Below are positions 364 through 33,847 of a stretch of 36,494 nucleotides of DNA, piece by piece. Location of the stretch: the IMG/VR virus record IMGVR_UViG_3300025030_000281, positions 1 to 36,494 of that record. One strand, given 5' to 3'. The number at the start of each line of letters is the position of its first letter. Within the stretch, counting starts at the first letter, position 1. The notes beneath the pieces are model-generated. The model was not told where the DNA came from. It searched no databases and saw only the letters and a list, made by a program, of their open reading frames with translations. The stretch is from a virus. The translations under genes and the position numbers were made by a program.

Positions 364-3300
364 ATGACTAAAATTGCACACTTTGCGGATTTACATATTC
401 GAACTTCTTCTCGCCACGAAGAATATAAAGAAATATTTCAAATAATTTATTCTCGTTTGCGAGAAGAAAAAATTGATTTAATTTTATTTTTAGGCGATTT
501 GTATCATAATAAGTGTAACTTAAGTCCAGAGTATGTAAAAGTTGCATCAGATTTTTTGAAAAATCTTGCTGGTATTGCCCCTGTAAGGATTATTTTAGGA
601 AATCATGATAAAATTTATAGTAACAACAACAGATTGGATGCCGTTTCTCCAATAATCGACGCTATAAATTTGGATAATTTAATACTTTATCTAAAGTCTG
701 GCGAATATTCATTTGATAATAATATTATCTTTAATGTGATGAATGTTTTTGATCGTGAAAATTGGATTTTAGAGCCTACTGATAAAAGCAAAATTAATAT
801 GGCTCTTTATCATGGCGCTATAAGAGGCGCAACCACCGACGTCGAATGGGTTGTTGATAGCGGAGAGGATGAAGTTGAAATATTTAATAATTTTGACTAT
901 GCACTACTTGGCGATATTCATCAAACACAAAGTTTAGATAAAAATGGAAGAATTAGATTTGCTGGTTCCGTTATTCAACAAAATCATGGTGAATCTAACG
1001 ATAAGGGTTTTTTGATTTGGGATATAAAAGACAAAGAAGAGTTTACCGTTAAGCATATTACTATTCCAAATCCAAAACCATTTATTACATTGTCGCTCGA
1101 TATAAATGGAGAAATAGAAAGCGTAACAAACGTTCCAGTCAATGCCAGGCTGAGGTTGATGGCCGATGGCAATCTTTCCTCCAACGTTGTCAAAAAAGCT
1201 ATTGATGTTGCAAAAGTAAAGTTTAAACCTGAAAGTGTTACTTTTTTAAACAACAACAAATCATCAAATAAATCAAATTTATTTATTAGCGGAGAGTACA
1301 GAAAGGAAGACCTTCGAAGTGACGCTGTTCAAGAAAAACTCATCAGAGAGTACTTGAAGGATTATCAAATAAAAGATGAGCTGTATGAAAGAATATTTTC
1401 AATAAACAAAAGATTTAATTCTATTCTGCAATCTCAAGAAACTTCAATAAGAAATGTTTTTTATGAGATTGAAAAGTTAGAATGGGATAATCTTTTTAAT
1501 TATGGCTCTGGTAATGTAATAGATTTCAAAAAACTCAATGGTATTGTTGGTTTATTTGGAAAGAATTTTTCGGGAAAAAGTAATGCAATCGAAAGTTTAT
1601 CTTATACATTGTTTAATTCTACGTCCAAAAATTCCAGAAAGAAAACTAAAATTATCAACAAAGATTGCAATTCTGGTTTTGGAAAATCTGTTTTAAAAGT
1701 TGGAGATAAAAAATACACGATAAAAAGATCTTCTGAAAAATATATTAAAAAACTTCATGGTGAAGAAACAGTTGAAGCGAAAACATCTTTAGATTTTGAA
1801 GTTTATGACGAGACAAACGATGAAACTGTTTCTTTAAATGGTGTCGATAGGATTGAAACAGACAAAAATATAACGAAGTTGTTTGGAACTTTTGATGATT
1901 TCATTTTGACTTCTATGTCTACTCAGCTTGGTTCGCTTTCTTATTTGGAAAAAGGTTCTACTGAAAGAAAAGAAATTTTAGCAAAGTTTTTAGACGTTGA
2001 TATTTTTTCTGAAAAATTTGATATGGCTAATAAAGAGTCGACCGATACGAAATCGATTCTTAAAAAACTAGAAGGAAAACAATTTGATAGCGAACTTATC
2101 AAATCGGAAATTGAACTTATAGAAAATGAAAAAAAGACTGAACATTGTAGAACAATTTGTCAGTCGCAAAAGGAAAAAATTGCTCTTTTGGAACACGATT
2201 GTATTTTGCTAAACGAAGCATTGAAAAATTCAGCAGAAGAAATTATCGATATTGCTGACGTACAATCGAAAATTACTGAGAAGAAAAAAGAAATAGAAAA
2301 TGTAAAAAATATCATAAAAGATATCGAAGATAAAATAATTGATAATACTTCGAAATTGGAAAAGGTTAATAACTTTATAGTTTCATTTGATTTAAAGTCA
2401 TTAAAGGAAAAGAAATTAACTGCTGATGATAAGAAAAGACAACTAGACAATATTTTGCACGATATAAAGGATAAAGAGAAAGAAATAAAATACGGTATAG
2501 AAAAAGTTTCTATTCTAAAAGAAGTTCCATGTGGACCAGAATATTCTCATTGTAAGTTTATTTGTGGAGCGTATGAGGCAAAGTTGCAATTAGTAGAAAT
2601 TGAATCGTTGTTGCTTAAAAAAGTTTCCGAAAGGGACAAAACAAGTGAACATGTTGAATTGTTGGCACCAGAAAAACTAGAAGAACAAATAGAAAAACAT
2701 AGAGTTCTTTTGGAAAAACAAAAATCATTTGAAAAAGATATTAACAATCAAAAATTGAACTTAGAAAACAAAAAGCAATCATTGTCTATATCTGAAATAA
2801 AATTGGATGAATTTTTGGAACGAGAAGAGAAATATAACAGAAACAAAGAAAGGATTTTAGAAGTAGAGAAAAAAAGACAAGAGTTGTCGATAAAAGAAAT
2901 CACTACTGGTGAATTAAATATTGAGAATAGCAAATGTGAAGAAGAGTTAAAAGAGTTGTATAAACAACATGGATGTATAAATCAAAAAATTACAAAATTA
3001 ACAGAAGATAAAAAAGAATTAGAAAAAACGAGAGAAGAATATGAAGCTTACGAATTGTTTATGAAATGCATGCATTCGAATGGAATAGCATATGATATAA
3101 TAAAAAAGAATCTTCCAATAATAAACGAAGAGATAGCAAAGATTTTATCTAGTATTGTAGATTATCAGGTATTTTTTGAAAACGAAGATAATAGGTTGGA
3201 GATTTATATTAAAAAAATTGGCGACATTGAAGTATTGCCAATAGAGGTGAGTTCGGGTTCGCAGAAGAATATTGCCGCGATGGCAATTAGATTAGCGTTT

Positions 3301-3522
3301 ATAAGTATTTCTTCTTTGCCTCGTTCGAATATTTTTATCCTCGATGAGCCAGCTACATCTTTTGATAGCGATTCTATTGATGGTTTTATTAGAATGCTTG
3401 GCGCAATCAAAAATCAATTTAAGTGTGTTTTGTTGATAACACACTTAGAACAGCTCAAAGACGCCGTTGATGTTATTATAAACATTGACAATAACGACAG
3501 CTTTGCTTCTGTTCGGGTTTGA
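364..3522 (+). CDS. Fused Mre11/SbcD nuclease - Rad50/SbcC ATPase (T4 gp47-gp46 type)
   Basis: This 1052-residue protein holds two normally separate recombination subunits. Residues 1-240 are a calcineurin-like phosphoesterase: D9-L-H11, GD45, GNHD at 79-82, YHG at 149-151 and GDIHQ at 183-187 form the expected metal-binding set. From about residue 370 it becomes a Rad50-type ABC ATPase: Walker A GKNFSGKS at 399-406, two long charged coiled-coil arms, an apex with C723, C730 and C734 in place of a simple CxxC hook, an ABC signature SSGSQKN from 963, Walker B with D994-E995 and an H-loop histidine at 1027. All catalytic landmarks are present, so the fusion looks functional. Known family roles are DNA end resection, recombination-dependent replication and host DNA breakdown. 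I see no stop or frameshift between the halves. The ATG at 364 follows a purine-rich stretch. Confidence 0.9.
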   Translation: MTKIAHFADLHIRTSSRHEEYKEIFQIIYSRLREEKIDLILFLGDLYHNKCNLSPEYVKVASDFLKNLAGIAPVRIILGNHDKIYSNNNRLDAVSPIIDAINLDNLILYLKSGEYSFDNNIIFNVMNVFDRENWILEPTDKSKINMALYHGAIRGATTDVEWVVDSGEDEVEIFNNFDYALLGDIHQTQSLDKNGRIRFAGSVIQQNHGESNDKGFLIWDIKDKEEFTVKHITIPNPKPFITLSLDINGEIESVTNVPVNARLRLMADGNLSSNVVKKAIDVAKVKFKPESVTFLNNNKSSNKSNLFISGEYRKEDLRSDAVQEKLIREYLKDYQIKDELYERIFSINKRFNSILQSQETSIRNVFYEIEKLEWDNLFNYGSGNVIDFKKLNGIVGLFGKNFSGKSNAIESLSYTLFNSTSKNSRKKTKIINKDCNSGFGKSVLKVGDKKYTIKRSSEKYIKKLHGEETVEAKTSLDFEVYDETNDETVSLNGVDRIETDKNITKLFGTFDDFILTSMSTQLGSLSYLEKGSTERKEILAKFLDVDIFSEKFDMANKESTDTKSILKKLEGKQFDSELIKSEIELIENEKKTEHCRTICQSQKEKIALLEHDCILLNEALKNSAEEIIDIADVQSKITEKKKEIENVKNIIKDIEDKIIDNTSKLEKVNNFIVSFDLKSLKEKKLTADDKKRQLDNILHDIKDKEKEIKYGIEKVSILKEVPCGPEYSHCKFICGAYEAKLQLVEIESLLLKKVSERDKTSEHVELLAPEKLEEQIEKHRVLLEKQKSFEKDINNQKLNLENKKQSLSISEIKLDEFLEREEKYNRNKERILEVEKKRQELSIKEITTGELNIENSKCEEELKELYKQHGCINQKITKLTEDKKELEKTREEYEAYELFMKCMHSNGIAYDIIKKNLPIINEEIAKILSSIVDYQVFFENEDNRLEIYIKKIGDIEVLPIEVSSGSQKNIAAMAIRLAFISISSLPRSNIFILDEPATSFDSDSIDGFIRMLGAIKNQFKCVLLITHLEQLKDAVDVIINIDNNDSFASVRV

Positions 3523-5017: not shown

Positions 5018-5521
5018 GTGGCTGAAAATACAATAGAAATAATCCAAGGTATTTCGCAAGTTATGGCGAACAAGCACGATGGCTGTGTTGATGAATCAGG
5101 CGAGCCTATTTTAATAGGTCTTCGCCGAGAGGAACCTGTTTCCATTCACGACAAACGAATAATGGATGGGTTTGGCGTTAATATCAATGGAAACAAATTA
5201 AAACTTTCTTACCATGGACAAATTTCATTGAAAGAAGTTTATGAAACTAAGTTTGAAGAGAAAATAACTGATATTATAGAGCAGTGTGCCGCTTTTTTAA
5301 AGCGAGAATACAAGAAGGTTACAAAAAAAGCTCTAGGCTTAAAGATGATAGGTGAACCTACTGTCAGAGTGGAGCATATGAACAAAACACGCAGTTGGGT
5401 TCTTGCTAACTGCATTTATGAATTGATTGGTCTTGATGGGATGAGTTCGGTAGATGAAACCGCCAAAGAACGACTTGATGCGGTAACCAAAAATTGGGCT
5501 GCAATGAGGAAGAAACAATGA
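5018..5521 (+). CDS. Conserved unknown protein upstream of packaging genes
   Basis: About 168 residues from GTG 5018, one base after the previous stop and about 9 bases after an AAGGA element. The frame also reaches back to a TTG at 5000, which is less attractive. The protein is mixed alpha/beta without membrane segments. Recognisable stretches are GISQVMANKHDG, GEPILIGLRREE and FLKREYKKVTKKAL. I have seen proteins of this pattern near head genes of uncultured tailed phages, which makes a head or neck protein plausible, but I cannot name a family. Its stop overlaps the next ATG as ATGA, so it is part of the packaging operon. Confidence 0.6.
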   Translation: MAENTIEIIQGISQVMANKHDGCVDESGEPILIGLRREEPVSIHDKRIMDGFGVNINGNKLKLSYHGQISLKEVYETKFEEKITDIIEQCAAFLKREYKKVTKKALGLKMIGEPTVRVEHMNKTRSWVLANCIYELIGLDGMSSVDETAKERLDAVTKNWAAMRKKQ

Positions 5522-6045
5522 TAAATAAAGAACGGTTGAATAAAATTATTCAAGAAGAAGTACAAAAACTTCTAAACGAACAGCCTCACGTTAAAGCAAT
5601 GTTGGTTTATGAACACATCGAAGAAACCTTGGGCGCAGATGCCGTAACAGAACTAGAAGAAATGTCTTTGGAATCTATCGAAGAAATCGACGAAGTTGCG
5701 CCACCAGGCAAAGAAAAAATGGTAAAAAAACTCAAGAAAACTCTTCCAAAAACATATACTGATCCAAAATCTGGCGAAAGAAAACAATCAAATCCTTGGG
5801 CAATTGCGTGGTCACAATATAACAAAAAAAATGAAAATTCTACTATACTTGAAGAACAATTTACATCGGATGATGCCAGAGAAAAGTCTGAATCAGGAAA
5901 TCCAATAATGATACCGTTAAGAGTGGCGGATAGAATAGCTAGGGATAATTCATCTTCATATTCTGAACTTGAACGCGACTCGGAATATAGCGATGTGTTT
6001 AGGCAAGCAAAAAACATTGGGAGTATTATGCTTGGAAGTTGTTAA
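5518..6045 (+). CDS. Unknown phage protein with PPGKEK...NPWAIAW motif
   Basis: About 175 residues from ATG 5518, which overlaps the previous stop as ATGA. The N-terminus (NKERLNKIIQEEVQKLLNE) is a helix of a type shared by several proteins in this window (compare 6121 and 14248). The middle carries APPGKEKMVKKLKK followed by NPWAIAWSQYNKK. This PPG...NPWA.AW signature recurs in proteins of T4-like and marine phages, where it is usually unannotated. No catalytic residues or membrane segments are visible. A 75-base gap without a convincing gene follows. I infer a head or packaging accessory role from position only. Confidence 0.6.
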   Translation: MINKERLNKIIQEEVQKLLNEQPHVKAMLVYEHIEETLGADAVTELEEMSLESIEEIDEVAPPGKEKMVKKLKKTLPKTYTDPKSGERKQSNPWAIAWSQYNKKNENSTILEEQFTSDDAREKSESGNPIMIPLRVADRIARDNSSSYSELERDSEYSDVFRQAKNIGSIMLGSC

Positions 6046-6120: not shown

Positions 6121-6888
6121 ATGAAACACACATTCAAAAAATCAGAAATAGAGAAAATGATAAAAGAAGAAGTTGAAAGATTTGTTAATAATCTTTCAAA
6201 CAATTCTGAAGAGGAAGTCGGAGAGAGTTTTAAATATAAAGTTTTGATTCTTTCAAAAGAGATTTCTAAGCCGTTTGCTGAGTTTGAAGTAATGAGTTTG
6301 GAAGACGCTGTTGAATGCGCGAAATATTGGGTAGAAAAAGGATATACGCTTGATCAAAAAGAGACCAGTAGAGAAGTATTGAAAGCTTTTTCTGATAATG
6401 AAAAGGATATAAACCAAGAAGGTGGTGGTGTAGACTATTTTTCGTCAATGCTCGATGAGGCTGCCGTTGCCAATATGGATCCTAAAATTACAAGTAAAAT
6501 TAAAATTGTTAAAGCTGCAATTGGCACTAAAGAATTACTTGAAAAAATATTTGAAATGTTAATTGAGTCTTATTCTGAAGCTAATATTAAAAGTGAGTTG
6601 GCTAGCAAATTGATAGCGGCCGCTGAACATTATCGTAAACAAAAAGGCATCGCGCCTGGTTTGTCGGAAGCGCTTGGTGAAATAGAAGCAACCATTCGTC
6701 GTGCTCACAAAGATTTGCTTGGTATGTTAAATCCTGAAGAATATTTGGCTGGGTTGGTTAATTTGGCGTTTGCAAATCAAAATCCTACTATAAGGCAACA
6801 GATGACTGTGTTTCTTGATAAAGAAATTTCTACAATTGAAAAAGTTACCAAAAGTCAGCATTATGGCGCGCCTCCACAACGACGATGA
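6121..6888 (+). CDS. Unknown protein immediately upstream of terminase large subunit
   Basis: A 255-residue, largely helical protein. It starts with a short basic helix (KHTFKKSEIEKMIKEEVERF), contains a region KITSKIKIVKAAIGTKELLEK and a helix-rich C-terminal half (AAAEHYRKQKG, then LGEIEATIRRAHKDLLGML). It ends 6 bases before the large terminase gene. That is the usual position of a small terminase subunit, and the size and helical content are compatible, but I see no clear helix-turn-helix and recognise no gp16-like sequence. The upstream 75 bases hold only a weak purine stretch (AAGGTTGAG) as ribosome binding site. The function therefore stays open. Confidence 0.6.
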   Translation: MKHTFKKSEIEKMIKEEVERFVNNLSNNSEEEVGESFKYKVLILSKEISKPFAEFEVMSLEDAVECAKYWVEKGYTLDQKETSREVLKAFSDNEKDINQEGGGVDYFSSMLDEAAVANMDPKITSKIKIVKAAIGTKELLEKIFEMLIESYSEANIKSELASKLIAAAEHYRKQKGIAPGLSEALGEIEATIRRAHKDLLGMLNPEEYLAGLVNLAFANQNPTIRQQMTVFLDKEISTIEKVTKSQHYGAPPQRR

Positions 6889-6894
6889 TAAACC

Positions 6895-8508
6895 ATGTCT
6901 TCTTCTCAATCGCTTTTGTCCAAAAAAGATATAGCTCGTGAGCTAATTCGTTGCGGGAAAGAACCAGTTTATTTTATCGATACTTATTGTAGAATTTCTC
7001 ATCCAATTCGTGGAATAATATCGTTTAAGACTTGGGATTTTCAAAAAAAGCTTCTTCAAGATTATAAAGATTATCCTTTTAATATAATATTAAAATCAAG
7101 ACAACTTGGTGTGTCGACTTTGACCGCTGCGTATTGTTCTTGGTTGATGTTGTTTCATCGTGAAAAATCCATAATGGTTATAGCGACGAAGTTTAAAGTC
7201 GCAGCAAATCTTGTTCGAAAGGTTAAATCGATAATAAAGAACCTTCCATCATTCTTTGAACAACTAACACAAATCCAAGCCGATAATAAAACATCATTTT
7301 CGCTAACAAATGGTTCTCAAATAGACGCTGGTTCAAAAGCAACTGATGTCGGGCGTTCTGAAGCGTTATCACTTCTTGTTATTGACGAGGCTGCGCATGT
7401 AGAAAACATGAGCGAAGTTTGGACGGCCGCTGGACCAGCTTTGAGTGCTGGTGGAAGATGCATTGCGCTTTCAAGCCCGAAAGGTGTGAATAATTGGTTT
7501 CACGACAAATACACAAAAGCCGAAGCTAGTTTAAATGAATTTCATCCCACAAAACTTTCATGGGAGGTTCATCCAGAACGAACTGGAAATTGGGAACAGG
7601 AAGAAAGAAAGAAATATTCTACAAAACAGTTCTCACAAGAATATGAAGCAAATTTTCTTGCTAGCGGTGATACCCTTGTTGAAACAGTTATGTTAGAAGC
7701 TATAGCAAAATCATTGAAGCATCCTATTGCCAAAGGTGGATTTGATGGCGGCTTATGGATTTGGGAACGTCGAAAGCAATCGTACAATTACATGGCGGTA
7801 GCTGACGTCGCCCGCGGCGACGGTTTAGATTATTCGACGGCACAAATATTAAATATTGAAACCATGGAACAAGTTGCAGAATATAGAGGCAAGGCAGAGA
7901 CGGATGTTTTTGCAAGATTTCTATACGAAGTAGGAATAGAATATGGCAATGCAATGATGATTGTCGAGAACAATTCTCTTGGTTTTGAAGTGTGTAAAAA
8001 ATTGGATGAAATGAAATATCCCAATTTATATTGGTCGGAAAAAGGCTCGCACGATTACGTGCCTCCATACCAAGCAATGAGACTAGAAAATGTTGTACCA
8101 GGATTTACGATGTCAGTCAAGACCAGGCCGTGGGTTATAAATAAATTTGACGAATATATGAGGAATTCTTTAGTGATAATAAACTCTGAGAGAACTTACG
8201 ATGAGTTGACTACTTTCATATGGATGAATGGTAAAGTAGAAGCACAAAAAGGCAGCAATGACGATTTGGTTATGTCTTTAGCTTTGGCATGCTGGGTGCG
8301 AGAAACTGCTTTAAAAGAGATGTCAAGAGGCCTAGAATACAAGAAGACATTTTTAAAGTCAATGATTGTTACCAGGTCTGGCCTCAATACGACGATACCA
8401 GGGCAACAAGAATATGATAGAAAATTGTCCATTTTTAAGTCTAACAGAATGGCAGAAATAGAAGAATTGCAAAGACAGAAAAGGTTATTTGGGATTTACA
8501 AAGGATAA
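6895..8508 (+). CDS. Terminase large subunit (gp17-like)
   Basis: 537 residues. The N-terminal ATPase has a terminase-type Walker A (SRQLGVST at 68-75) preceded by FNIILK, and Walker B LLVIDEA with D164-E165, followed by the usual SSPKG coupling region. The C-terminal RNase H-like nuclease shows the first acidic residue in ADVARGDGLDYS (D304), a second in VENNSLG (E358) and a third in NDDLVMSLALA (D456/D457). It pumps DNA into the prohead through the portal and cuts the concatemer. The length is close to T4 gp17-type enzymes and both active sites look intact. The gene is followed 3 bases later by the portal gene, a usual order in tailed phages. Confidence 0.95.
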   Translation: MSSSQSLLSKKDIARELIRCGKEPVYFIDTYCRISHPIRGIISFKTWDFQKKLLQDYKDYPFNIILKSRQLGVSTLTAAYCSWLMLFHREKSIMVIATKFKVAANLVRKVKSIIKNLPSFFEQLTQIQADNKTSFSLTNGSQIDAGSKATDVGRSEALSLLVIDEAAHVENMSEVWTAAGPALSAGGRCIALSSPKGVNNWFHDKYTKAEASLNEFHPTKLSWEVHPERTGNWEQEERKKYSTKQFSQEYEANFLASGDTLVETVMLEAIAKSLKHPIAKGGFDGGLWIWERRKQSYNYMAVADVARGDGLDYSTAQILNIETMEQVAEYRGKAETDVFARFLYEVGIEYGNAMMIVENNSLGFEVCKKLDEMKYPNLYWSEKGSHDYVPPYQAMRLENVVPGFTMSVKTRPWVINKFDEYMRNSLVIINSERTYDELTTFIWMNGKVEAQKGSNDDLVMSLALACWVRETALKEMSRGLEYKKTFLKSMIVTRSGLNTTIPGQQEYDRKLSIFKSNRMAEIEELQRQKRLFGIYKG

Positions 8509-8511
8509 AAT

Positions 8512-10509
8512 ATGGCAAATCGCAATGGTAAAAATATAAAAAATACTGAATCCTTTTTGTTTAAAGGATTAACCAGAATATTTTCTGGACCAATTTCTAA
8601 TTTTCATCGACAAAATGTAAGAAATTACAAAAGAAATCAATTAGATAAATATCATTTTAAGTCTGCTTCTGGGAAAGAATTTAGAAAATCTTCATCTTCC
8701 CCTTTATCTAATTTGTATGCGATGTCGAAGGCCAATGTCAATAGGGCCGAAAGGTATATGGACTTTGATGCTATGGAGTTCGTAGGTGAGATTAATAGTG
8801 CTCTTGATATATATGCTTCGGAAATGACCATGTCGTCTGCGCTTTCGAAAATGCTTACAATTAATTGTGCCAATGAAGAGATAAAAGGTGTTTTGGAGAA
8901 CTTATATCATAACATTTTGAATGTTGATTTTAATCTTTTCGGGTGGTGTAGATCTTTATGCAAATATGGGGATGCATTCGTCTACCTTGATATTGATGAA
9001 AATATGGGCATAACAAGTTTCATGGGTTTGCCAGCGATGGAAGTCGAGCGCCTTGAGGGAGAAGATAAAACAAATCCAAATTATGTTCAATACCAATGGA
9101 ATTCTGGTGGGCTAACGTTTGAAAATTGGCAAGTTGCGCATTTTAGGATTTTAGGTAATGACAAATTCTCACCCTATGGAACTAGCTGTCTCGATCCAGT
9201 TCGTCGTATTTTCAGACAATTGCAATTACAAGAAGACGCGATGATGGCATATCGCGTCGTACGCTCCCCTGATCGTAGGGTTTTTTATATCGACGTTGGA
9301 GGCATTCCTGAAAAAGATGTCGAACAGTTTATGCAAAAAATTGTGACAGAGTTGAAGAGAAATCAAATAGTCGACCCAGACACTGGTAAGATTGATATGA
9401 GAATGAATGTTGGATCGATTTCAGAAGATTTTTATATTCCTGTCGTCGGCAACACTAGCGCAACACGCATTGAAACATTACCTGGCGGTTCATATGTTGG
9501 CGATATTGATGATGTAAAATATCTCCGCGATAAATTAATGTCAGGGCTAAAAATACCTCACTCCTATTTGATAGGAACAGAAGGGGCGATTGAAGATAAA
9601 ACAACATTATCGCAAAAAGATATCCAATTTGCCAAGACAATTCAGCGGTTGCAAAAAAGCGTTATTTCTGAATTAGAAAAAATAGGTATTATCCATCTTT
9701 ATGTTCTTGGCTATAGAGCCAATGATTTAGTTTCGTTTAGTCTTCGTCTGAACAATCCATCAAAAATAGCTGAATTGCAAGAGCTTGAACATTGGAAAAC
9801 AAAATTTGATGTTGCTTCTGCCGCAACGGAAGGTTTTTTTAGTCGCAGATGGGTTGCAAAAAATATTCTCAATATGACCGATGAAGAGTTCTTGCGCAAT
9901 ACAAGAGAAATGTTTTTTGACGCTCAGTTGTCGGCTGAACTTGAAATGACTTCTACGCCAGAGGAAGATATTGCCGCTGGCGATCTCGGATCAGAGCTTG
10001 GCTCCTCCGAAGGGGAACCTGAACAGTCAGACGACGTTCTTTTGGCAGCGCCTGGAAAAGAACCAGAGGGAATCTTGCCAGAGGGACCAATAACGACAGA
10101 TTTTTCTGCAATGGCTCCCAAAATGGTTCAAAAGGGCCACGTCACGGCTGGTTCGAACGGTAAGGTGTATGTTCCAGCGAAAGTTGACAAAAGAGGCGGC
10201 GGAGCTCGACTTCGACATATGAGAAGTCTTTATTCGGACGAGTCTGGTCGCGCGACCAGTAGAAACGTATTTAAAGGCGGCAATGAGCTGCGCGCTCTTT
10301 CGCGAGGAATATTCGAAAATTACGAAACTAATTATAAAAAAACAATCTTTGAAGAATTAGATGAAAAGAAGAAACTTGAAAGTGGTTTTTCGAATGAAGA
10401 CTTAGATATGGCTGAAAGCACAAAAACTATTGAAAAAATAATAGAAGGATTAGAAGGGACAAGTTGGAAAAATAGTATTAGGAAGAAAGTGAACAGCGAT
10501 GAGCAATAA
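8512..10509 (+). CDS. Portal protein (gp20-like)
   Basis: 665 residues directly downstream of the large terminase. The central part (DFDAMEFVGEINSALDIYA, FGWCRSLCKYGDAFVYLDI, HFRILGNDKFSPYGTSCLDP, RSPDRRVFYIDVGG, KYLRDKLMSGLKIPHSYLIG) matches the conserved core of T4-type portal proteins. Twelve copies are expected to form the ring at the unique vertex that carries the packaging motor and later the neck. The last 150 residues are glycine/charged-rich (for example GHVTAGSNGKVY) and less conserved, as is common for portal crowns. A ribosome binding site (AGGA) lies upstream of ATG 8512. The stop overlaps the next gene by 11 bases. Confidence 0.93.
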   Translation: MANRNGKNIKNTESFLFKGLTRIFSGPISNFHRQNVRNYKRNQLDKYHFKSASGKEFRKSSSSPLSNLYAMSKANVNRAERYMDFDAMEFVGEINSALDIYASEMTMSSALSKMLTINCANEEIKGVLENLYHNILNVDFNLFGWCRSLCKYGDAFVYLDIDENMGITSFMGLPAMEVERLEGEDKTNPNYVQYQWNSGGLTFENWQVAHFRILGNDKFSPYGTSCLDPVRRIFRQLQLQEDAMMAYRVVRSPDRRVFYIDVGGIPEKDVEQFMQKIVTELKRNQIVDPDTGKIDMRMNVGSISEDFYIPVVGNTSATRIETLPGGSYVGDIDDVKYLRDKLMSGLKIPHSYLIGTEGAIEDKTTLSQKDIQFAKTIQRLQKSVISELEKIGIIHLYVLGYRANDLVSFSLRLNNPSKIAELQELEHWKTKFDVASAATEGFFSRRWVAKNILNMTDEEFLRNTREMFFDAQLSAELEMTSTPEEDIAAGDLGSELGSSEGEPEQSDDVLLAAPGKEPEGILPEGPITTDFSAMAPKMVQKGHVTAGSNGKVYVPAKVDKRGGGARLRHMRSLYSDESGRATSRNVFKGGNELRALSRGIFENYETNYKKTIFEELDEKKKLESGFSNEDLDMAESTKTIEKIIEGLEGTSWKNSIRKKVNSDEQ

Positions 10510-12803: not shown

Positions 12804-13412
12804 ATGTCTGAAAAAAAATACATTTTAAGAGAGTTTTATAAACTGTGCGATGGTGGATTTTGCTCTGACCTATTGAATGAGTCCGACAAACAACATATCA
12901 AACAAGGCGGAATGATATTAACAGGAATTGCACAGCGTGCTGATGCTCGAAACGGAAATGGAAGAATCTATCCACGTCGGGTTCTTGAGAGAGAAGTTGA
13001 AAATTATAAGAAATTAGTTAGAGAAAACAGAGCCCTAGGGGAAATAGACCATCCAGACTCGGTAGTCGTTAATCTTAAAAACTCTTCTCACATGATTACT
13101 GAAATATGGTGGAATGGTGATGACGTGATGGTAAAATTGAAAGTTCTTTCTGGAACACCTGGCCAACAATTGCGTTCACTTGTAAATGACGGTGTTGCGA
13201 TTGGTTTATCTTCAAGGGGATTAGGATCTGTCAGGGAAACGCGAGAGGGAACGATTGTAGAAGATGATTTTGTTTTGGCATGCGTGGATGTAGTTTCTGA
13301 GCCGTCGACACAAGGCGCATTTGTCAATTTAATGGAATCTAAAGCAAATTTAGAATTAACCAAACCTGATAGAATATTTCGCTGCTTAAATGAGATATTA
13401 TTGAAAGAATAG
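12804..13412 (+). CDS. Prohead maturation protease (gp21-like, S78-type serine protease)
   Basis: 202 residues. The order of motifs follows T4-type prohead proteases: GIAQRADARNGNGRIYP (about 41-57), GEIDHPDS with the probable catalytic H83, GLSSRG with the probable nucleophile S136 or S137, and DVVSEPSTQGAF (162-173). The enzyme cleaves scaffold and capsid proteins inside the prohead before DNA packaging. Length agrees with gp21-type enzymes. In many T4-type phages scaffold and capsid genes follow within one or two genes; here they are about 15 kb away, separated by endonuclease and fibre genes. Only a weak AGAGAG precedes the ATG. Confidence 0.92.
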   Translation: MSEKKYILREFYKLCDGGFCSDLLNESDKQHIKQGGMILTGIAQRADARNGNGRIYPRRVLEREVENYKKLVRENRALGEIDHPDSVVVNLKNSSHMITEIWWNGDDVMVKLKVLSGTPGQQLRSLVNDGVAIGLSSRGLGSVRETREGTIVEDDFVLACVDVVSEPSTQGAFVNLMESKANLELTKPDRIFRCLNEILLKE

Positions 13413-13418
13413 TATTCT

Positions 13419-14225
13419 ATGTCTTTTCCGTTTTTTAAACAATCAGATTGTAAAAATTTTGGAATTTATGTAATAACAAACTCAATCGACGGCAAAGTTT
13501 ACATTGGTAGTACAATAAGAAATTTTCGTAAGCGTTGGCGAGAACATAGAAACTTATTGAAGGATGGGAATCACGGCAACGTTCATCTTCAGCGCGCATG
13601 GAACAAATATGGAGAAGAAAATTTTCAATTTGAAATTCTAGAAAAATTAGAAGACAAAAAAGACCTATCGTTGGTCTCCAAAAGAGAAGAATATTGGATC
13701 AGTAGCTTCGGCAGCTTCAAACCAGAGAGCGGATATAACATTGAAATTATTATTGGAGAAAGAAAAGTAGTCTCGGAAGAAACCAGGAATAAAATTAGCG
13801 ATGCCAATTCTGGTCGAAAATGTAGTCCCGAAGCAAAAGAAAAAATAGTAAAAACTTTAAAGAGCTTATATCAAAACGGTGTCGAAAGGCCATGGAATAA
13901 AGGTTTATTAATGTCGCTTGAGTTCCGAGAAAGAGTGAGTTCCTCTCATATTGGCCTAAAGCACAAACCAGAAACTATTGAAAAGATAAGAAGTTGGAAT
14001 ATTGGAAAAGTTGTTTCGGACGAAACAAAACAGAAAATTAGTAGTTCTAAAAAAGGAATTATTTCAAAATCTAGAAAATTTAAACCAGACGAAGTGTTGA
14101 GTATTTTAAATGAAAGAAAAAGTGGCTTAGGTTGTATTGCGATTTCGAAAAAATATAATGTTTCTGTTGCTACAATCAAGAGAATTTGCAACAGAACTTA
14201 CTATAAAGAAATAAGTGATGTTTAA
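13419..14225 (+). CDS. GIY-YIG homing endonuclease with NUMOD3-like repeats (copy 1)
   Basis: 268 residues. The N-terminal GIY-YIG nuclease shows GIY at 15-17, YIG at 28-30, arginines in the FRKRWREH helix and a glutamate in KREEYWIS (about 90-91), the expected catalytic set. Then follow about five degenerate NUMOD3-type DNA-binding units (ETRNKISDANSG, EAKEKIV, ETIEKIR, ETKQKISSSKKG) and a C-terminal helix-turn-helix-like part (GCIAISKKYNVSVATIKRI). The gene is free-standing, 6 bases after the protease, with no sign of a host intron or intein. Such enzymes cut unmarked alleles and spread by copying themselves. I cannot see its target site; the neighbouring protease gene or the 14248 gene are candidates. 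Confidence 0.9.
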   Translation: MSFPFFKQSDCKNFGIYVITNSIDGKVYIGSTIRNFRKRWREHRNLLKDGNHGNVHLQRAWNKYGEENFQFEILEKLEDKKDLSLVSKREEYWISSFGSFKPESGYNIEIIIGERKVVSEETRNKISDANSGRKCSPEAKEKIVKTLKSLYQNGVERPWNKGLLMSLEFRERVSSSHIGLKHKPETIEKIRSWNIGKVVSDETKQKISSSKKGIISKSRKFKPDEVLSILNERKSGLGCIAISKKYNVSVATIKRICNRTYYKEISDV

Positions 14226-14247: not shown

Positions 14248-14718
14248 ATGAATAAGCAGGAATTAAAAGATATTCTAAAGCCTTTAATTAAAGAAGCTGT
14301 CAAGGAAGTTATTTTAGAAACTGGTGTTTTGTCAAAGATTATCACAGAAGTTGTGACTGGATTAAACACCTCTAATCTTCATCAGTATTCCACAAAGACA
14401 GTTGCTCCGCAACGAGAAAGTGAAATGATGTCTAAAAAAGTAATTGAATCACGTGCTGCGTTCAAAGAGGCGGCTGGTGAACGCAATAGATTGCTCGAAG
14501 AGAATCTTAAAAAGATGGTTGGGAAGTCTGGCTTTGAAAAAGCATTTGAAGGAGTTACGCCATTGACCGAAGGTGGTCCCCCAGAACAAAAGCATTCAGC
14601 GTTAAGAGAAATGGATCCAGGCGATAAAGGTATTGACGTGAGCAAAATTGTTAACCTTGTAGGTGGGAAACAAACTTGGACAAAACAATTGAATAACAAT
14701 AAAAAGAAAGAAGAATAA
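14248..14718 (+). CDS. Unknown protein, helical
   Basis: 156 residues. ATG 14248 follows GCGAGAG. The N-terminus (NKQELKDILKPLIKEAVKEVI) is an amphipathic helix similar in style to the starts of 5518 and 6121. The middle is charged and helical (RAAFKEAAGERNRLLEENLKKM) and the C-terminus polar (GGPPEQKHSALREMD). It lies between the first GIY-YIG gene and the bS21 homologue, one base before the latter. Its place after the protease would suit a small scaffold or core protein, but the better scaffold candidate is at 28210. The function is unknown. Confidence 0.6.
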   Translation: MNKQELKDILKPLIKEAVKEVILETGVLSKIITEVVTGLNTSNLHQYSTKTVAPQRESEMMSKKVIESRAAFKEAAGERNRLLEENLKKMVGKSGFEKAFEGVTPLTEGGPPEQKHSALREMDPGDKGIDVSKIVNLVGGKQTWTKQLNNNKKKEE

Positions 14719-14719
14719 A

Positions 14720-14980
14720 GTGTACAACAATAGAAAAGAAGAAGTTAGTTTTGATAATGGTAACTTTACAGTAAGATTACGAAAAGAAGAATCTTGTGAA
14801 ACATTGATAAAGCGTTTTCTCAAAAAGACAAAGAAAGAAGGCGTTATTGATGAAGTTTTGGAAAGAAAGCATTTTAAAAAACATTCAGCCAAAAAGAGAG
14901 AAAAAGCTTTAAAGCGTGAAATGCTATTCAAGCTGCTGAACAAGAAAGAAAGATTGGAACAAGAGAGAGATGACGGTTAA
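14720..14980 (+). CDS. rpsU-like: Ribosomal protein bS21 homologue (phage-encoded)
   Basis: 86 residues from GTG 14720. The stretch from residue 17 to 65 follows the bS21 pattern: FTVRLRKEESCETLIKRFLK corresponds to the bS21 start with its RF pair, KKEGVIDEVLERKHF to the conserved helix linker, and KKHSAKKREKALKREM to the basic C-terminal part. Bacterial bS21 has about 70 residues and sits near the mRNA exit and anti-Shine-Dalgarno region of the 30S subunit. Phage and large-virus bS21 genes are known and are thought to replace host S21 to favour phage messages. Here it is only one base from the previous gene and lies among virion genes. The short N-terminal extension and the acidic tail are unusual for bS21. 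Confidence 0.8.
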   Translation: MYNNRKEEVSFDNGNFTVRLRKEESCETLIKRFLKKTKKEGVIDEVLERKHFKKHSAKKREKALKREMLFKLLNKKERLEQERDDG

Positions 14981-15006: not shown

Positions 15007-15429
15007 ATGACAAGAACAACTAATGCGTGGTATACGCCGCCTGGAATTTGGAATACGAACTCATATTTGAGCTCGGGGATACCGTACGTTACGGGGGCGG
15101 TTTTATTGTCGTCTAGCTTTTCAACACTAAATGCACAAGTCAAAATCGAATTTCCTTACGTCTCACGTTCAATAACGGTTATTAATAGGTCAAGTACAGA
15201 TATTAGAATTCACTTTAACTCACTCTCTGACGGCAACGTTGAGGCAAACCATCATTACGTTACACTTAGCGAGTCAAAGGATTCCATAACTTTGTCGACA
15301 AAGACAAAAGAACTTTATATTTCGTTAGCAACTGGTTCGGCTAATGGCGAATTTGAGTTGTTTTCGGAGCTCACAAATATCGACGCAAAAGAAATGTTCC
15401 CACTCACGGGTTCGGGATTAACCCTATAG
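15007..15429 (+). CDS. Small virion-like structural protein
   Basis: 140 residues, rich in beta-prone, serine and threonine residues and without charged helices: TRTTNAWYTPPGIWNTNSYL, GIPYVTGAVLL, EFPYVSRSITVINRS, ITLSTKTKELYISLATG. It looks like a compact beta-sandwich and resembles small proteins found next to capsid or fibre genes in T4-like marine phages. Base composition is visibly less AT-rich than in the neighbouring endonuclease genes, as is usual for well-expressed virion genes. The exact role (head decoration, neck or fibre) cannot be told. A CTATTTAA motif and a purine stretch precede the ATG. Confidence 0.6.
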   Translation: MTRTTNAWYTPPGIWNTNSYLSSGIPYVTGAVLLSSSFSTLNAQVKIEFPYVSRSITVINRSSTDIRIHFNSLSDGNVEANHHYVTLSESKDSITLSTKTKELYISLATGSANGEFELFSELTNIDAKEMFPLTGSGLTL

Positions 15430-15438
15430 AAAGTTACA

Positions 15439-16158
15439 ATGGCCAAATCTGGAATATATCAAATTCGCAACTTGATTAATGGGAAGGCTTACATTGGCAG
15501 TACAATTAATTTTAATAATAGAAAATGCAGTCATTTTAATCTTTTAAAAGCAAACAAGCATCCAAATTGCAAATTACAAAATGCTTGGAATAAATATGGT
15601 GAACAAAATTTCATTTTTGAAGGTGTAGAAGAAGTGCCTGAAAAAGAAAAACTTATTGAACGTGAACAATACTACCTTGATGAAACAAGTCCAGAATATA
15701 ATATATGTAGAATTGCAGGAAGTCAATTGGGCTTTCGACATTCAGAAGAAAGCAAACGAAAGATATCTGAATTAAAAAATGGACTACGACCTTCGCAGGA
15801 AACTAAACGCAAAATGTCTAAATCTCAATCAGGCAGAAAGCATTCTGAAGAATCTAAACAAAAAATATCTCAAGCTAACAAAAAGACAAAAATTATCAAA
15901 GAAACTTATCGAGATGAAAGTAATCCAATGTTCGGAAAACGCCATTCTGAAGAGGCAAGACGAAAGATGTCGGGATCTCACATCGGAATTCAGTCTGGAG
16001 AAAAACATCCAAATTGCAAATTAAGTCTTGAGCAAGTAAAAATTATAAGAGAAAAATATAAAGCTGGCGTTTGCACTCAAAAGGAACTAGCTGAAGAGTT
16101 TAATACAACTTTTGGAAATATTTTTAAAATTATCAGCCATAGAACCTGGAAAGAATAG
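15439..16158 (+). CDS. GIY-YIG homing endonuclease with NUMOD3 repeats (copy 2)
   Basis: 239 residues. GIY at 5-7, YIG at 18-20, the conserved HLQNAW-like segment (KLQNAWNKYGEQNF), the catalytic-type glutamate in IEREQYYL (E76) and YNIC at 87-90 are all present. Four NUMOD3-like units follow (ESKRKISELKNG, ETKRKMSKSQSG, ESKQKISQ, EARRKMSG) and a C-terminal recognition helix ending in SHRTWKE. The first 30 codons resemble those of the copy at 25080 at DNA level, so the two are related paralogues. It stands between two virion genes with no intron signs and is followed by 142 bases without a supported gene. Confidence 0.9.
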   Translation: MAKSGIYQIRNLINGKAYIGSTINFNNRKCSHFNLLKANKHPNCKLQNAWNKYGEQNFIFEGVEEVPEKEKLIEREQYYLDETSPEYNICRIAGSQLGFRHSEESKRKISELKNGLRPSQETKRKMSKSQSGRKHSEESKQKISQANKKTKIIKETYRDESNPMFGKRHSEEARRKMSGSHIGIQSGEKHPNCKLSLEQVKIIREKYKAGVCTQKELAEEFNTTFGNIFKIISHRTWKE

Positions 16159-25050: not shown

Positions 25051-25087
25051 CCAGACAGCGATATTCGAGGAAGTGTTAAGTGAGTGA
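25028..25087 (+). pseudogene. Possible 5' remnant/duplicate of the 26006 gene, cut off by GIY-YIG insertion
   Basis: A GTG at 25028 opens a 19-codon frame beginning VSISKQ, nearly the same as the MAITKQ start of the 78-residue gene at 26006. Upstream, TAAATAGGAAAA at 25011-25022 parallels TAAAATAGGAAAA at 25988-26000, which is the ribosome binding site of the 26006 gene. The frame ends inside the start of the endonuclease gene. The simplest reading is that this is a leftover or duplicated 5' end of the downstream gene created when the endonuclease inserted. Confidence 0.45.
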
Positions 25088-26033
25088 TGAAGAAATAAAT
25101 TCTGGAATATATAAAATTCGCAATTTGACTAATGGTAAGTTTTATATTGGAAGTACCATTGATTTTGATAAAAGAAAATATGATCATTTTAGAGATTTAA
25201 AGAACAACAATCATCATTCTTATCATTTACAAAATGCTTTTAATAAACATGGCGAACAAAGTTTTATATTTGAAGCTATAGAAAAGCTCGAGCCGAACAA
25301 AGGAAAATTGCTTGAAAGAGAACAGTGTTGGATTGACTCGCTAACCCCAGAATATAATATTTGTAAAATTGCAGGAAGTTGTTTGGGAATAAAGCTTTCT
25401 GACGAAACTAAACAAAAAATGTCTGAGGCGCAAAAAGGTAAATTTCATTCTGAAGAAACTAAACTAAAGATGTCAGAAGCGCGAAAAGGCAAACATCTTT
25501 CAGAGGATCATAAGCGAAAAATGTCTGAATCTAAAAAAGGTGAAAAAAATCATAATTTTGGCAAACACCTTTCCGAAGAAATTAGACAAAAATTGTCTGA
25601 AGTTCAAAAGGGGACTCACATCGGAGAAAAAAATTCTTTTTACGGAAAAAAGCATTCTGATGAAACTAAACAAAAAATGTCTGAGGCGCAAAAAGGTAAA
25701 CACCTTTCCGAAGAAACAAAAAGAAAAATGTCTGAATCTAAAAAAGGCGAAAAACATCCTTTTTATGGTAAACACCTTTCTGAAGAAGCTAAACAGAAAT
25801 TGTCAGAAGCGCGAAAAGGCGAAAACAGCCCTAGCGCAAAACTTACGTGGGAAAAAGTTAACGAAATGAGAGAAAAGTATAAAACTGGCTCTTATACATT
25901 AAAACAATTAGCAAAAGAATATGAAGTGTCGCAGTCGACCATTCAGCAAGTAATGGAAAATAGAACTTGGAATGGAGCGGAACTAGTTAAAATAGGAAAA
26001 ATTGTATGGCAATTACAAAACAAATTATATTAG
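25080..26033 (+). CDS. GIY-YIG homing endonuclease with seven NUMOD3 repeats (copy 3)
   Basis: 317 residues from GTG 25080. GIY at 9-11, YIG at 22-24, HLQNAFNKHGEQSF, the catalytic-type glutamate in LEREQCWID (E81) and EYNICKIAGS are present. The middle carries seven NUMOD3-type units of the form SEETKxKMSEAxKGKH, some nearly identical at DNA level, so the array has recently grown. A C-terminal helix-turn-helix (LKQLAKEYEVSQSTIQQVM) follows. The 3' end runs 28 bases into the next gene, so the last residues (from about ELVKIGK) are encoded by that gene's leader and start. The insertion lies exactly between a fibre gene and a small gene and is flanked by an imperfect duplication. Confidence 0.9.
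   Translation: MSDEEINSGIYKIRNLTNGKFYIGSTIDFDKRKYDHFRDLKNNNHHSYHLQNAFNKHGEQSFIFEAIEKLEPNKGKLLEREQCWIDSLTPEYNICKIAGSCLGIKLSDETKQKMSEAQKGKFHSEETKLKMSEARKGKHLSEDHKRKMSESKKGEKNHNFGKHLSEEIRQKLSEVQKGTHIGEKNSFYGKKHSDETKQKMSEAQKGKHLSEETKRKMSESKKGEKHPFYGKHLSEEAKQKLSEARKGENSPSAKLTWEKVNEMREKYKTGSYTLKQLAKEYEVSQSTIQQVMENRTWNGAELVKIGKIVWQLQNKLY
25391..25830 (+). repeat. Tandem coding repeats (NUMOD3 units)
   Basis: Seven units of about 17-28 codons encode the NUMOD3 repeats of the third GIY-YIG enzyme. Segments such as AAACAAAAAATGTCTGAGG occur unchanged in units one and five, and TCAGAAGCGCGAAAAGGC in units two and seven. The near identity indicates recent duplication or slippage within the gene. Confidence 0.8.
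25967..26029 (+). repeat. Right copy of imperfect direct repeat flanking the third GIY-YIG gene
   Basis: This copy spans the 3' end of the endonuclease gene, the ribosome binding site (ATAGGAAAA) and the first codons of the 26006 gene. See the left copy at 24995-25050 for the matching blocks. The arrangement looks like a duplicated or recombined junction rather than a clean cut-and-paste footprint. Confidence 0.55.
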
Positions 26034-28148: not shown

Positions 28149-28165
28149 CGCATTCTTGTGCGAAA
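28146..28165 (+). other. Second short hairpin in the scaffold leader
   Basis: TTTCGCA at 28146-28152 pairs with TGCGAAA at 28159-28165 with a six-base loop. It overlaps the T-run of the terminator and lies about 45 bases before the scaffold start. It may stabilise the 5' end of the scaffold and capsid message or help termination. Confidence 0.35.
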
Positions 28166-28209
28166 GAAACTATTTAATTTTGGATAATACTATTTTTAGG
28201 GAGAACAAC

Positions 28210-29511
28210 ATGCCATCAACGATGTTAGAACAAGCTATTGTAGACGCAAATCAACTTAAAGAAGCTGCGATGAAGTCGGCTGAAGCGGAAGTTCTAAAAA
28301 GATATTCCAATGAAATCAAAGAAGCTGTTGGAAAACTTTTGGAACAGCCACTTGATGATATGGAAGACTCTATGTCAATTGGTGGTATGGATATGCAAAA
28401 TACTTCTTCGTCTGAAGATGTTCTTTCTCAAATACCAATGGCTGCGACAGACGGCGAAAAACTTTGCCAATGTCCCGAAGAAGATGAAGAAATAGAAATA
28501 GATTTTGATCAGTTGGCGCAGATGAGTGCAATGGATAATGCATCGGACGATTTGCCAGGACAAATGAACACTCCTTCCCCAGAAGGAATGTATATGGAAG
28601 AAGGTTCACCTGGAATTGTAATTCCAGCCAGCATTGGACCAGATTTACATTCTTTTTCAAATGATCCCGAAAGTCCAATTCGCAAACTTGGCGAAGCTGC
28701 TCTATCGGCTCAATCAGTTTCTCGAGAGCTTGTTGAAATGGCAATTGGAAATTTAATGACCATTGGAGAATCTTTGTTAGAAGAAAATGACAAACTGAAA
28801 ATAAATGAAATTGTTGAAATTCTAAAAAACACACTTAATCCAATATCACATATGCCAACAGTCGACGCTGGTCTTCAACAAGAATCTCTTTTAGATAAAG
28901 AAGAATTGAGCATTTCAGAAGAAATGATTCAAAACATTTTAGAAACACTTGAAGTAGATATTGAAAATGTTCCCGTTGGTCATCCTGGGCGTGCCACAAC
29001 GCCAGAGCGAGAAATGGCAAATCAAATCGAACTTGCAAGTCTTGAGGATGACAAAAGAAAAGAAGAACATGAAGCCACAAAAAAGGCAATGGCAAAATTT
29101 CAAGCAGAAAACCAATCTTTGAAAGTGCAATTGAGAAATCAAATTGACGAAAACAAAAAGATAAAATCAATTGCACTTAAAGCCTCAAATAAACTTGAGG
29201 AATTAAACGTTCAAAATGTGAAACTCACATTTAAAAATAGAGCTTTGGAAAGCGTCTCCCTGAATGAGCGACAACGAACAAAAATTGTCGAAGCTGTTTC
29301 TAAAGTAAGTTCGGTTAATGAAGCAAAAGTTATTTTTGAAACATTATATGACTCTTTTACGACAAAAGACAAGAGCTCGAATGCTCCCCAAAATCTAAAC
29401 GAGGCAATAAACAAAAATACATCAAACTTTATTAAGCCGAAGGAAACAACAGAAAACAACATCGATCCGATAAGGGAAAGGATGTTGAGGTTAGCGGGAA
29501 TCAAAAAATAA
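28210..29511 (+). CDS. Prohead core/scaffold-like protein
   Basis: About 433 residues from ATG 28210, preceded by AGGGAG; the frame is open further upstream to 28156, but the ribosome binding site fixes this start. The protein is acidic, rich in E, K, Q and M, without a compact hydrophobic core, and has long helices (QAIVDANQLKEAAMKSAEAE, then DKRKEEHEATKKAMAKFQAE). It ends in IRERMLRLAGIKK. Glutamate-rich helical proteins directly before a gp23-like capsid gene are typical scaffolds (gp22 role), which fill the prohead and are removed by the prohead protease. Sequence identity to T4 gp22 is not obvious, so the call rests on composition and position. Confidence 0.7.
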   Translation: MPSTMLEQAIVDANQLKEAAMKSAEAEVLKRYSNEIKEAVGKLLEQPLDDMEDSMSIGGMDMQNTSSSEDVLSQIPMAATDGEKLCQCPEEDEEIEIDFDQLAQMSAMDNASDDLPGQMNTPSPEGMYMEEGSPGIVIPASIGPDLHSFSNDPESPIRKLGEAALSAQSVSRELVEMAIGNLMTIGESLLEENDKLKINEIVEILKNTLNPISHMPTVDAGLQQESLLDKEELSISEEMIQNILETLEVDIENVPVGHPGRATTPEREMANQIELASLEDDKRKEEHEATKKAMAKFQAENQSLKVQLRNQIDENKKIKSIALKASNKLEELNVQNVKLTFKNRALESVSLNERQRTKIVEAVSKVSSVNEAKVIFETLYDSFTTKDKSSNAPQNLNEAINKNTSNFIKPKETTENNIDPIRERMLRLAGIKK

Positions 29512-29535: not shown

Positions 29536-31239
29536 ATGAGTATCATACAAAAATTAACAGAAGGAGTCCAGAGCGTTGATAAGCAAAAGGAAGGTCACGC
29601 TCTCGTTGCCAAATGGCGCGAGCTAGGGCTTCTAGAAGGTCTAAAAGATGAGCGAACAGTGAATAATATTGCACTTTTGCTCGAAAATCAAGCAAAAGAA
29701 CTTTTGCGTGAAGCTAGCACAATGTCTGGCGGTGACGTAGAAGGCTTTGCGGCAGTGGCATTCCCACTTGTTCGCAGGGTGTTCGGTGGGCTAATTGCCA
29801 ATGAACTGGTTTCGGTTCAACCAATGAGTCTTCCAACAGGTCTAATTTTCTTCCTCGATTTCCAACATGACCGTACTCGCCTCGGTGCAACCGCTGGCGA
29901 CTCAGTCTATGGTGGTGGACGAGTGGCAAATGAGATTACAGGTGGTGTAATTCTCACAGGTGCAAATATCGAAAAAAGCTTCTACAACATGAACAATGGT
30001 TATTCGTCCCCAACAGGGTCGGCGAGTGCCACGTATACCGTTGTAGCGTCAGGTACGGTAGGTTCTGGCGATGGCTTGAATACGTGGACGGGCACAGCGG
30101 CATACACGGCTCTACGTGACAGGCTGGTTCGTTTTGATCCAGATATCGCGTCTGGGACTATTGTAGCGGTTGCTACGTCGCCTCTGACATCCTTTTCGCA
30201 ACTGGATGTCAAGAACCTTGTAGCGATGGTGCCGACGCCTGGCCCTGGTCGCATGCAACGACGTTTGACGGTCGTAGATCCAACTGACAGCACTAAACTT
30301 ATGTTCGTGTTGGCAGCTACGGCGTCTGAAACGGCGAACGTATTGAAGGCGGCATGGGATGCTGGAGCTGTTGCAACTACATATCCGATTACAGATAATC
30401 GAGTTGCTGGTGGTGCGCTTGGGTCAGTACTCGGGACAACCATTTGGGGTCTTGAGAACGAACCACACATTCCAGAAATTGACATCAAAGTCAACTCCAT
30501 TAGCATTGAGGCAGAAACAAAGAAACTCAAAGCAAAATGGACACCTGAGCTTCAACAGGACATTCAAGCTTATCAGAACCTAGACGCAGAAGTTGAATTG
30601 ACAAGTCTATTGTCAGAGCATGTTGCGCTAGAAATTGATCAGGAAATTCTTGAAGACCTAGTGAAAGGTGCAACTGGTCAAGTTGCTTATTGGTCACGAC
30701 GACCAGGTAAGTTCCTCGATCGTTACGCGGGTGCAGGCATTGTCAATAGTGCGAATGAAAGCATTATGGGTGCAGATTTCACAGGAAATGTGTCGGAGTG
30801 GTACGAGACATTGCTCGAAACCATTAATGACGTTTCTGCTCAAATTCACAGGAAGACACTTCGCGGCGGCGCAACCTATATGGTTGTGAGCCCTGAAGTT
30901 GCCAGTATTCTGGAAATGACAGCAGGTTTCCGTGCAAGTGTAACCCATGACGAAGACAAGGGCGAGGCTGGTACAGTGAAGTTGGGAACAATCAATAAGA
31001 AATGGGAAATCTATGTGGATCCCTACTTTTTGAGAAATATAATATTGGTTGGTAGAAAGGGCAATAGTTTCTTGGAAAGCGGGTATGTGTATGCACCGTA
31101 TGTGCCACTTCAGGTGACACCTACCATTTTTGATCCTGAAACATTTACCCCCCGAAAAGCCATCATGACAAGGTTTGGTCGCAAAATGATAAGGCCAGAC
31201 ATGTTTGGTCTTATTGTGATTGAAGACATGGTTGGTTAA
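29536..31239 (+). CDS. Major capsid protein (gp23-like)
   Basis: 567 residues behind a strong ribosome binding site (AGGGAGATAAC). The N-terminal delta-like part (to about residue 60) is charged and helical; the fold then begins with FAAVAFPLVRRVFGGLIANE and LVSVQPMSLPTGLIFFLDF, the signature start of T4-type capsid proteins. Further on WTPELQQDIQAYQNLDAEVE and VALEIDQEILEDL match the family, as do YMVVSPEVASILEMT and the end region TRFGRKMIRPDMFG. It builds the HK97-fold shell. Cleavage by the gp21-like protease probably occurs near residues 55-70. The gene is clearly richer in G and C than its surroundings, as expected for a very highly expressed gene. Confidence 0.93.
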   Translation: MSIIQKLTEGVQSVDKQKEGHALVAKWRELGLLEGLKDERTVNNIALLLENQAKELLREASTMSGGDVEGFAAVAFPLVRRVFGGLIANELVSVQPMSLPTGLIFFLDFQHDRTRLGATAGDSVYGGGRVANEITGGVILTGANIEKSFYNMNNGYSSPTGSASATYTVVASGTVGSGDGLNTWTGTAAYTALRDRLVRFDPDIASGTIVAVATSPLTSFSQLDVKNLVAMVPTPGPGRMQRRLTVVDPTDSTKLMFVLAATASETANVLKAAWDAGAVATTYPITDNRVAGGALGSVLGTTIWGLENEPHIPEIDIKVNSISIEAETKKLKAKWTPELQQDIQAYQNLDAEVELTSLLSEHVALEIDQEILEDLVKGATGQVAYWSRRPGKFLDRYAGAGIVNSANESIMGADFTGNVSEWYETLLETINDVSAQIHRKTLRGGATYMVVSPEVASILEMTAGFRASVTHDEDKGEAGTVKLGTINKKWEIYVDPYFLRNIILVGRKGNSFLESGYVYAPYVPLQVTPTIFDPETFTPRKAIMTRFGRKMIRPDMFGLIVIEDMVG

Positions 31240-33224: not shown

Positions 33225-33847
33225 ATTTTCGCACGTGCACAAAATGTAAAAAAGAAAAACTTCTTTCAGAAGAAAATTTTGCTTTTTACAGCGGAAAGTA
33301 TGAAGCGCGTTGCAAAGAATGTAGAAAAGAATATCACAAAGAACATTATCAAAAAGTTAAGCATAAAATATCTAAAAGAAGAAGTGAGCATCATAAAAAG
33401 TATTGGCTGGAAAATAAAGAAACATTATCAGAACAATATAAAATATATTGGAAAAGTTATTATGAAAAAAACAAAGAAAAGAAAATTCAATACCAAGTTG
33501 ATTACAAAAGAGAGCAAAGAAAAGACCCCGCCGTAAGAATGAGGAATAATGTTTCAGGTCAGATCAGAAATGCATTAAAAAAGAATAAAACTTCAAAAAA
33601 TTCTCCAACCTGGTCTAAACTTCCTTACACTCCTTTGCAACTCAAAGAACATCTTGAAAAACAATTTGACAGCAACATGACATGGGGCAACTACGGCTCA
33701 TATTGGCACATCGATCACGTTATCCCGCAATCTTTATTGCTTTACGACTCAATGGAGCATCCAAACTTTATCAAATGCTGGTCGTTGAGCAATTTGCAAC
33801 CACTTGAAGCGAAAGAAAATATGAGCAAAGGCAATAAGACGTCTTGA
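33221..33847 (+). CDS. HNH homing-type endonuclease with one zinc-ribbon unit
   Basis: 208 residues; ATG 33221 overlaps the stop of the Vsr-like gene (ATGA). One N-terminal zinc unit (CTKCKKEKLLSEENF...CKEC), a long basic linker rich in K, Y and E, then SPTWSKLPYTPLQLKEHLE, HNH WHIDHVIPQS (H163, D165, H166) and NLQPLEAKENMSKGNK. It is a paralogue of the gene at 31363 with one instead of three zinc units, and the C-terminal thirds are nearly identical. The enzyme probably nicks or cuts DNA at a phage allele lacking the gene. The target is not visible. Confidence 0.87.
   Translation: MNFRTCTKCKKEKLLSEENFAFYSGKYEARCKECRKEYHKEHYQKVKHKISKRRSEHHKKYWLENKETLSEQYKIYWKSYYEKNKEKKIQYQVDYKREQRKDPAVRMRNNVSGQIRNALKKNKTSKNSPTWSKLPYTPLQLKEHLEKQFDSNMTWGNYGSYWHIDHVIPQSLLLYDSMEHPNFIKCWSLSNLQPLEAKENMSKGNKTS
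33601..33659 (+). repeat. 59-bp segment identical to one in the first HNH gene (copy B)
   Basis: This is the partner of 31959-32017. Similarity continues downstream at a lower level (for example CTCAATGGAGCATCCAAA and TGGTCGTTGAG in both), ending with the genes. Upstream of the segment the two genes quickly diverge. Confidence 0.85.

Follow-up and report, generated by a model that had tools for sequence, protein, structure and literature searches.

A conserved head-operon gene of T4-like phages encodes a bS21 homologue that is a candidate late modifier of the host ribosome

The DNA analysed here is an IMG/VR virus record of 36,494 nucleotides (the window) from a T4-like phage in which the genes for the terminase, T4-type portal, prohead protease and gp23-like major capsid protein (MCP) are all clear. 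On the plus strand lie, in order, the large terminase subunit TerL (6895..8508; Terminase_6N E = 1.7e-10, PHROG 2 E = 1.5e-40), the gp20-like portal (8512..10509; Portal_T4 E = 2.3e-73), the gp21-like prohead core protease (12804..13412; Peptidase_S77 E = 2.9e-32), a conserved open reading frame o156 (14248..14718), the bS21 (rpsU-like) gene that is the subject of this work (14720..14980), a second conserved frame o140 (15007..15429), a probable scaffold gene (28156..29511) and the MCP (29536..31239; PHROG 138 E = 5.5e-66), which has the Shine–Dalgarno (SD) leader GGGAGA (-8.9 kcal/mol). The scaffold candidate is assigned from its conserved position directly upstream of the MCP, the gp22 position, and a Pfam search with it gave no match. 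The first-pass annotation had placed a bS21 homologue among virion genes, and this is indeed its setting.

The bS21 frame encodes 86 amino acids from a GTG start codon one base past the TAA of o156. It passes the curated cut-offs of both Pfam Ribosomal_S21 (PF01165; 30.9 bits against 27, E = 2.3e-7), the search that the first-pass annotation had proposed as a check, and NCBIfam TIGR00030 (S21p; 36.0 bits against 28.95, E = 4.4e-9), and it matches PHROG 21469, 'ribosomal protein S21', with E = 3.4e-5. In a phmmer search of the PDB all matches up to E = 1 are bS21 chains, the best at 7e-5, and a profile built from the phage bS21 relatives finds bacterial, plastid and mitochondrial bS21 chains in the PDB at E values from 2e-13 to 1e-6. 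The 'RF pair' and basic helix by which the protein had been recognized are both present. Of the core motif (F19, Y38, K40, P41 and S42 in E. coli numbering), F33, K54 and S56 are kept, an aromatic Phe occupies the Y38 position and His replaces P41, so that the KPS motif reads KHS. The frame at 14720-14980 is thus a genuine bS21.

An AlphaFold2 model of the protein (mean pLDDT 87) contains helices at residues 26-40, 42-50 and 55-85, the last being a long C-terminal helix. The top structural matches are mitochondrial bS21 (bS21m) chains and a chain of a 30S subunit, 9fib_U, which is probably bS21; the latter superimposes on the model over 63 residues at 1.9 Å, with modest scores (Z only 5.3, Foldseek E > 1). 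The predicted helix arrangement is the one expected for bS21, and we take the fold evidence as supportive only.

Several other features of the window were recorded. Three GIY-YIG/NUMOD3 homing-type endonuclease genes are present (13419-14225, 15439-16158 and 25080-26033), two of which flank the o156-bS21-o140 group. The frame at 31363-32265 has an HNH match below the cut-off and resembles by eye that at 33221-33847. A single gene of 1052 codons (364-3522) combines metallophosphoesterase and SMC domains and looks like a fused gp47/gp46 of the SbcD-SbcC type; the corresponding region is split into separate frames in the nearest relative described below. By eye, a similar amphipathic N-terminal helix is found in the products of the frames at 5518-6045, 6121-6888 and 14248-14718 and of one in a related contig (L215:424-906), examples being KIIQEEVQKLL, IKEEVERFV, LIKEAVKEVI and IIKEELQAVL. 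Such N-termini might serve to target prohead core proteins to the capsid.

We compared the window with related phage loci, in which the gene order TerL-portal-o275-o180-o111-protease-o156-bS21-o140-scaffold-MCP recurs. bS21 lies between the protease and the MCP in 50 of the 55 distinct related loci that span both genes, and all 88 copies examined are on the head-gene strand (88/88). The flanking frames are similarly stable, with o140 the next recognized gene in 61 loci and o156 directly preceding bS21 in 64. In those 64 loci the commonest o156-bS21 gap is 0-15 bp, a spacing that suggests translational coupling of the two genes. The nearest relative, a 201-kb contig (G008) whose MCP is 77% identical to that of the window, has its own bS21 and an o140 that is 84.5% identical. 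The huge phage LR756508 also encodes bS21 upstream of its MCP; Flavobacterium phage immuto, which is more distantly related, has no bS21 in that place.

The slot is also occupied in a cultivated phage. Microcystis phage Mel-JY01 (PP395634) has an annotated RpsU between protease and MCP; we found it through synteny, a tblastn search of phage records with the window bS21 having returned one weak match only. Mel-JY01 resembles the window in the succession of protease, one frame, bS21 and further frames leading to the MCP, in the Lys24 residue discussed below and in its use of SD leaders, but its MCP is only 35% identical and the frame upstream of its bS21 encodes, by eye, a different protein.

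Some of these loci differ from the window in other ways. In the nearest relative a stretch of about 11 kb within G008:180001-200000 (L199) holds 27 tRNA genes, and none was found in the window. Its portal (L193/L194, G008:79599-83213, minus strand) has 1205 residues against 665 in the window and appears to hold two inteins, judged by eye from the ends ...IVSN and ...IVHN, that are absent from the window portal. In one bS21 (L120:8922-9254) an insertion precedes the KPS-like motif and the tail is long and basic; this copy is perhaps degraded or altered.

Mapped on an MCP tree of 173 representative lineages, the presence of bS21 changes only three times. The median dN/dS is 0.10 for bS21, 0.14 for the MCP and 0.38 for o140 (the pairs are not independent), and bS21 is under purifying selection; its value is near the pN/pS of 0.10 given for viral ribosomal protein genes by Mizuno et al. 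(PMC6375957). With a fixed slot, just three changes of presence and purifying selection on its sequence, bS21 is therefore a core, vertically inherited gene of the head operon.

Across 116 phage bS21 sequences K40 is kept in 114, and F19, Y38, P41 and S42 are mostly kept. At the position equivalent to E. coli residue 24 (K38 in the window protein) 114 of them have Lys and the other two Arg, and cellular bS21, in a set made up mostly of Clostridia, has Ala, Ser, Glu or Gln there. The sole 'cellular' sequence with Lys24 (L215) belongs to a contig that is itself phage, inside a gammaproteobacterial metagenome-assembled genome (MAG). Lys24 is shared with Mel-JY01 and a Vibrio phage. We rejected it as a general mark of phage bS21, because it is missing from HTVC008M, Mosig, PA5oct and Melnitz; on the sequences compared it is a clade signature. 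A column-by-column comparison of conservation between phage bS21 and the Clostridia-heavy cellular set gave rho = 0.24 (p = 0.07) and was set aside. Lys24 lies in the helix that, according to Chen et al. (PMC9723584), covers the path of the mRNA and anti-SD sequence, and is a candidate for what distinguishes the phage protein from host bS21; Chen et al. also describe divergence in this helix.

As to the host, a genome scan for similarity to the window bS21 was uninformative, with mainly Clostridia at about 40% identity among the matches listed. The phage contig with Lys24 (L215, PBOB01000007.1), which has the same head block and bS21, was binned in an Acidiferrobacteraceae MAG, pointing weakly to a host among the Gammaproteobacteria.

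We scored SD strength as the energy of the duplex with ACCUCCUUA, taking gene starts as predicted by a simple gene caller. The first-pass annotation had observed that some leaders are strong and others almost missing. This unevenness is real: SD strength in the window and the 201-kb relative agrees gene by gene across 23 orthologues with matching starts (Spearman rho = 0.89), part of the agreement coming from leaders that are nearly identical by descent. Throughout the clade MCP leaders are strong (mean -7.9 kcal/mol, against -2.2 for shuffled sequence) and TerL leaders are weak. The further argument that such leaders make specialized initiation plausible is weakened by this pattern, which looks like ordinary gene-by-gene tuning of SD strength. 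A comparison of early and late ribosome binding sites, also proposed in that annotation, gave little: in the 201-kb relative the structural block has only marginally stronger SD leaders than the rest (p = 0.07), and a second long genome (G042) has no clear pattern by block. We therefore set aside an early/late leader contrast as a sign of specialized initiation.

Between phages, bS21 and SD usage go together. Among 233 loci with an SD index, 103 have both bS21 and SD leaders and 121 have neither; the nine that disagree comprise seven with SD leaders and no bS21 and two, at the chosen threshold, with bS21 and no SD, namely the window, with a weak overall signal and a strong MCP leader, and the huge phage LR756508. 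Phage immuto served as a control and, in keeping with its host group, has no SD signal (7%, against 6% in shuffled sequence). On the MCP tree there are three changes of bS21 and seven of SD class, an independent-pairs test is powerless, and the association is largely one phylogenetic split with very few tree events; we do not count it as independent evidence. One hypothesis is that bS21 of the Lys24 class acts specifically on SD/anti-SD initiation, being kept as a core gene of the head operon with SD-using hosts and absent from SD-less lineages; we regard this as doubtful. If it were true, the presence or absence of bS21 would mark the initiation mode of the host.

Phage bS21 near head genes, its late transcription and the idea that it could take over ribosomes are already published (PMC6375957, PMC9723584). 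The gene is frequently found near prohead protease and MCP: in 388 of 900 published bS21 phages a core structural gene lies no further than ten genes away, and in lake phages bS21 is transcribed late with the head genes (Chen et al. 2022, PMC9723584). The freshwater Bacteroidetes phages described there resemble the window in that TerL, portal, prohead protease and MCP all lie near bS21. They differ in that their bS21 runs opposite to the head genes, whereas it is co-directional in the window clade; in having SD-less Bacteroidetes hosts, where the window clade has SD leaders; and in an aromatic residue at the position of F. johnsoniae Tyr54, which is Met in the window by an ungapped count from the KPS motif. 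Tyr54 does not serve as a marker of SD-less hosts, as four SD-using loci (L365, L367, L368 and L450) carry Tyr there. Pelagibacter phage HTVC008M also encodes a bS21, and Mizuno et al. (2019, PMC6375957) showed that pelagiphage bS21 is incorporated into E. coli 70S ribosomes, but in HTVC008M the gene lies beside replication and CobS genes and position 24 is Met. Further isolates likewise have bS21 outside the head genes, beside replication genes (Mosig, as in HTVC008M), ClpX (PA5oct) or IF3 (a Vibrio phage). In Vibrio phage 2.275.O (L529) it adjoins a phage IF-3 gene and an L7/L12-ClpS-like gene in a small translation cassette. The co-directional slot, the Lys24 signature and the SD pattern were not found in the accessible parts of PMC6375957 or PMC9723584, and the first two are apparently new.

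We propose, with a probability of roughly 0.5, that the vertically inherited head-operon bS21 is made late and replaces host bS21 so that ribosomes serve late phage messages. The gene would be transcribed together with the capsid genes late in infection, and its translation would directly follow that of o156; its product would then take the place of host bS21, a protein that is easily lost or exchanged (PMC9976891), on the 30S platform, and the re-equipped ribosomes may serve the late messages at the time when structural proteins are needed. The first-pass annotation had taken the position in the structural block to imply late action. What stands of this is that late expression is likely, because bS21 sits in a conserved head-gene operon, and late transcription is reported for other bS21 phages (PMC9723584); the action itself, and the bias of initiation toward phage messages that was also suggested there, we keep as conditional parts of the proposal. 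The lack of a clear early/late leader split and the location of bS21 outside the head genes in other isolates count against re-tooling.

The phage protein might instead be an extra supply of bS21 that prevents a shortage in 30S subunits when late translation is intense, without favouring phage messages. The ready loss and exchange of host bS21 would favour such a role too, as would the conserved core residues, the purifying selection and leaders that resemble ordinary gene-by-gene SD variation. Yet the consistent difference from cellular bS21 at position 24 in the sampled sets, together with long divergent tails, argues that the phage protein is not just a duplicate of the host's, and we consider a pure dosage effect possible but tentative.

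A takeover mainly by inhibition, in which phage bS21 blocks initiation on host messages in part of the ribosome pool, is suggested by the finding that E. coli ribosomes with pelagiphage bS21 retain only about 5% of their translation activity on a GFP template (PMC6375957), a result that fits poisoning as well as re-tooling. However, E. coli is a mismatched host for that protein, placement in the head operon is late for shut-off and the phage would depend on these ribosomes for its own SD-led genes, which makes this explanation unlikely. That the basic protein is made with the prohead core proteins and carried in the capsid, for injection into the next cell and immediate action there or as a DNA-binding internal protein, is very improbable: packaging is raised as a possibility by Chen et al. 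(PMC9723584) and would suit a gene whose place between prohead protease and scaffold is fixed, but the bS21 core residues are conserved and the capsid-targeting-like N-terminus of neighbouring frames is not seen, by eye, in bS21.

In this broad and mostly uncultured group of T4-like phages, bS21 is a stable core gene of the head operon and not a sporadic extra. It offers a genetically simple candidate for a modifier of ribosomes late in infection, whose signature residue, Lys24, is open to mutation, and Mel-JY01 provides a cultivated relative in which to ask whether ribosomes are re-tooled by viruses to make late proteins.
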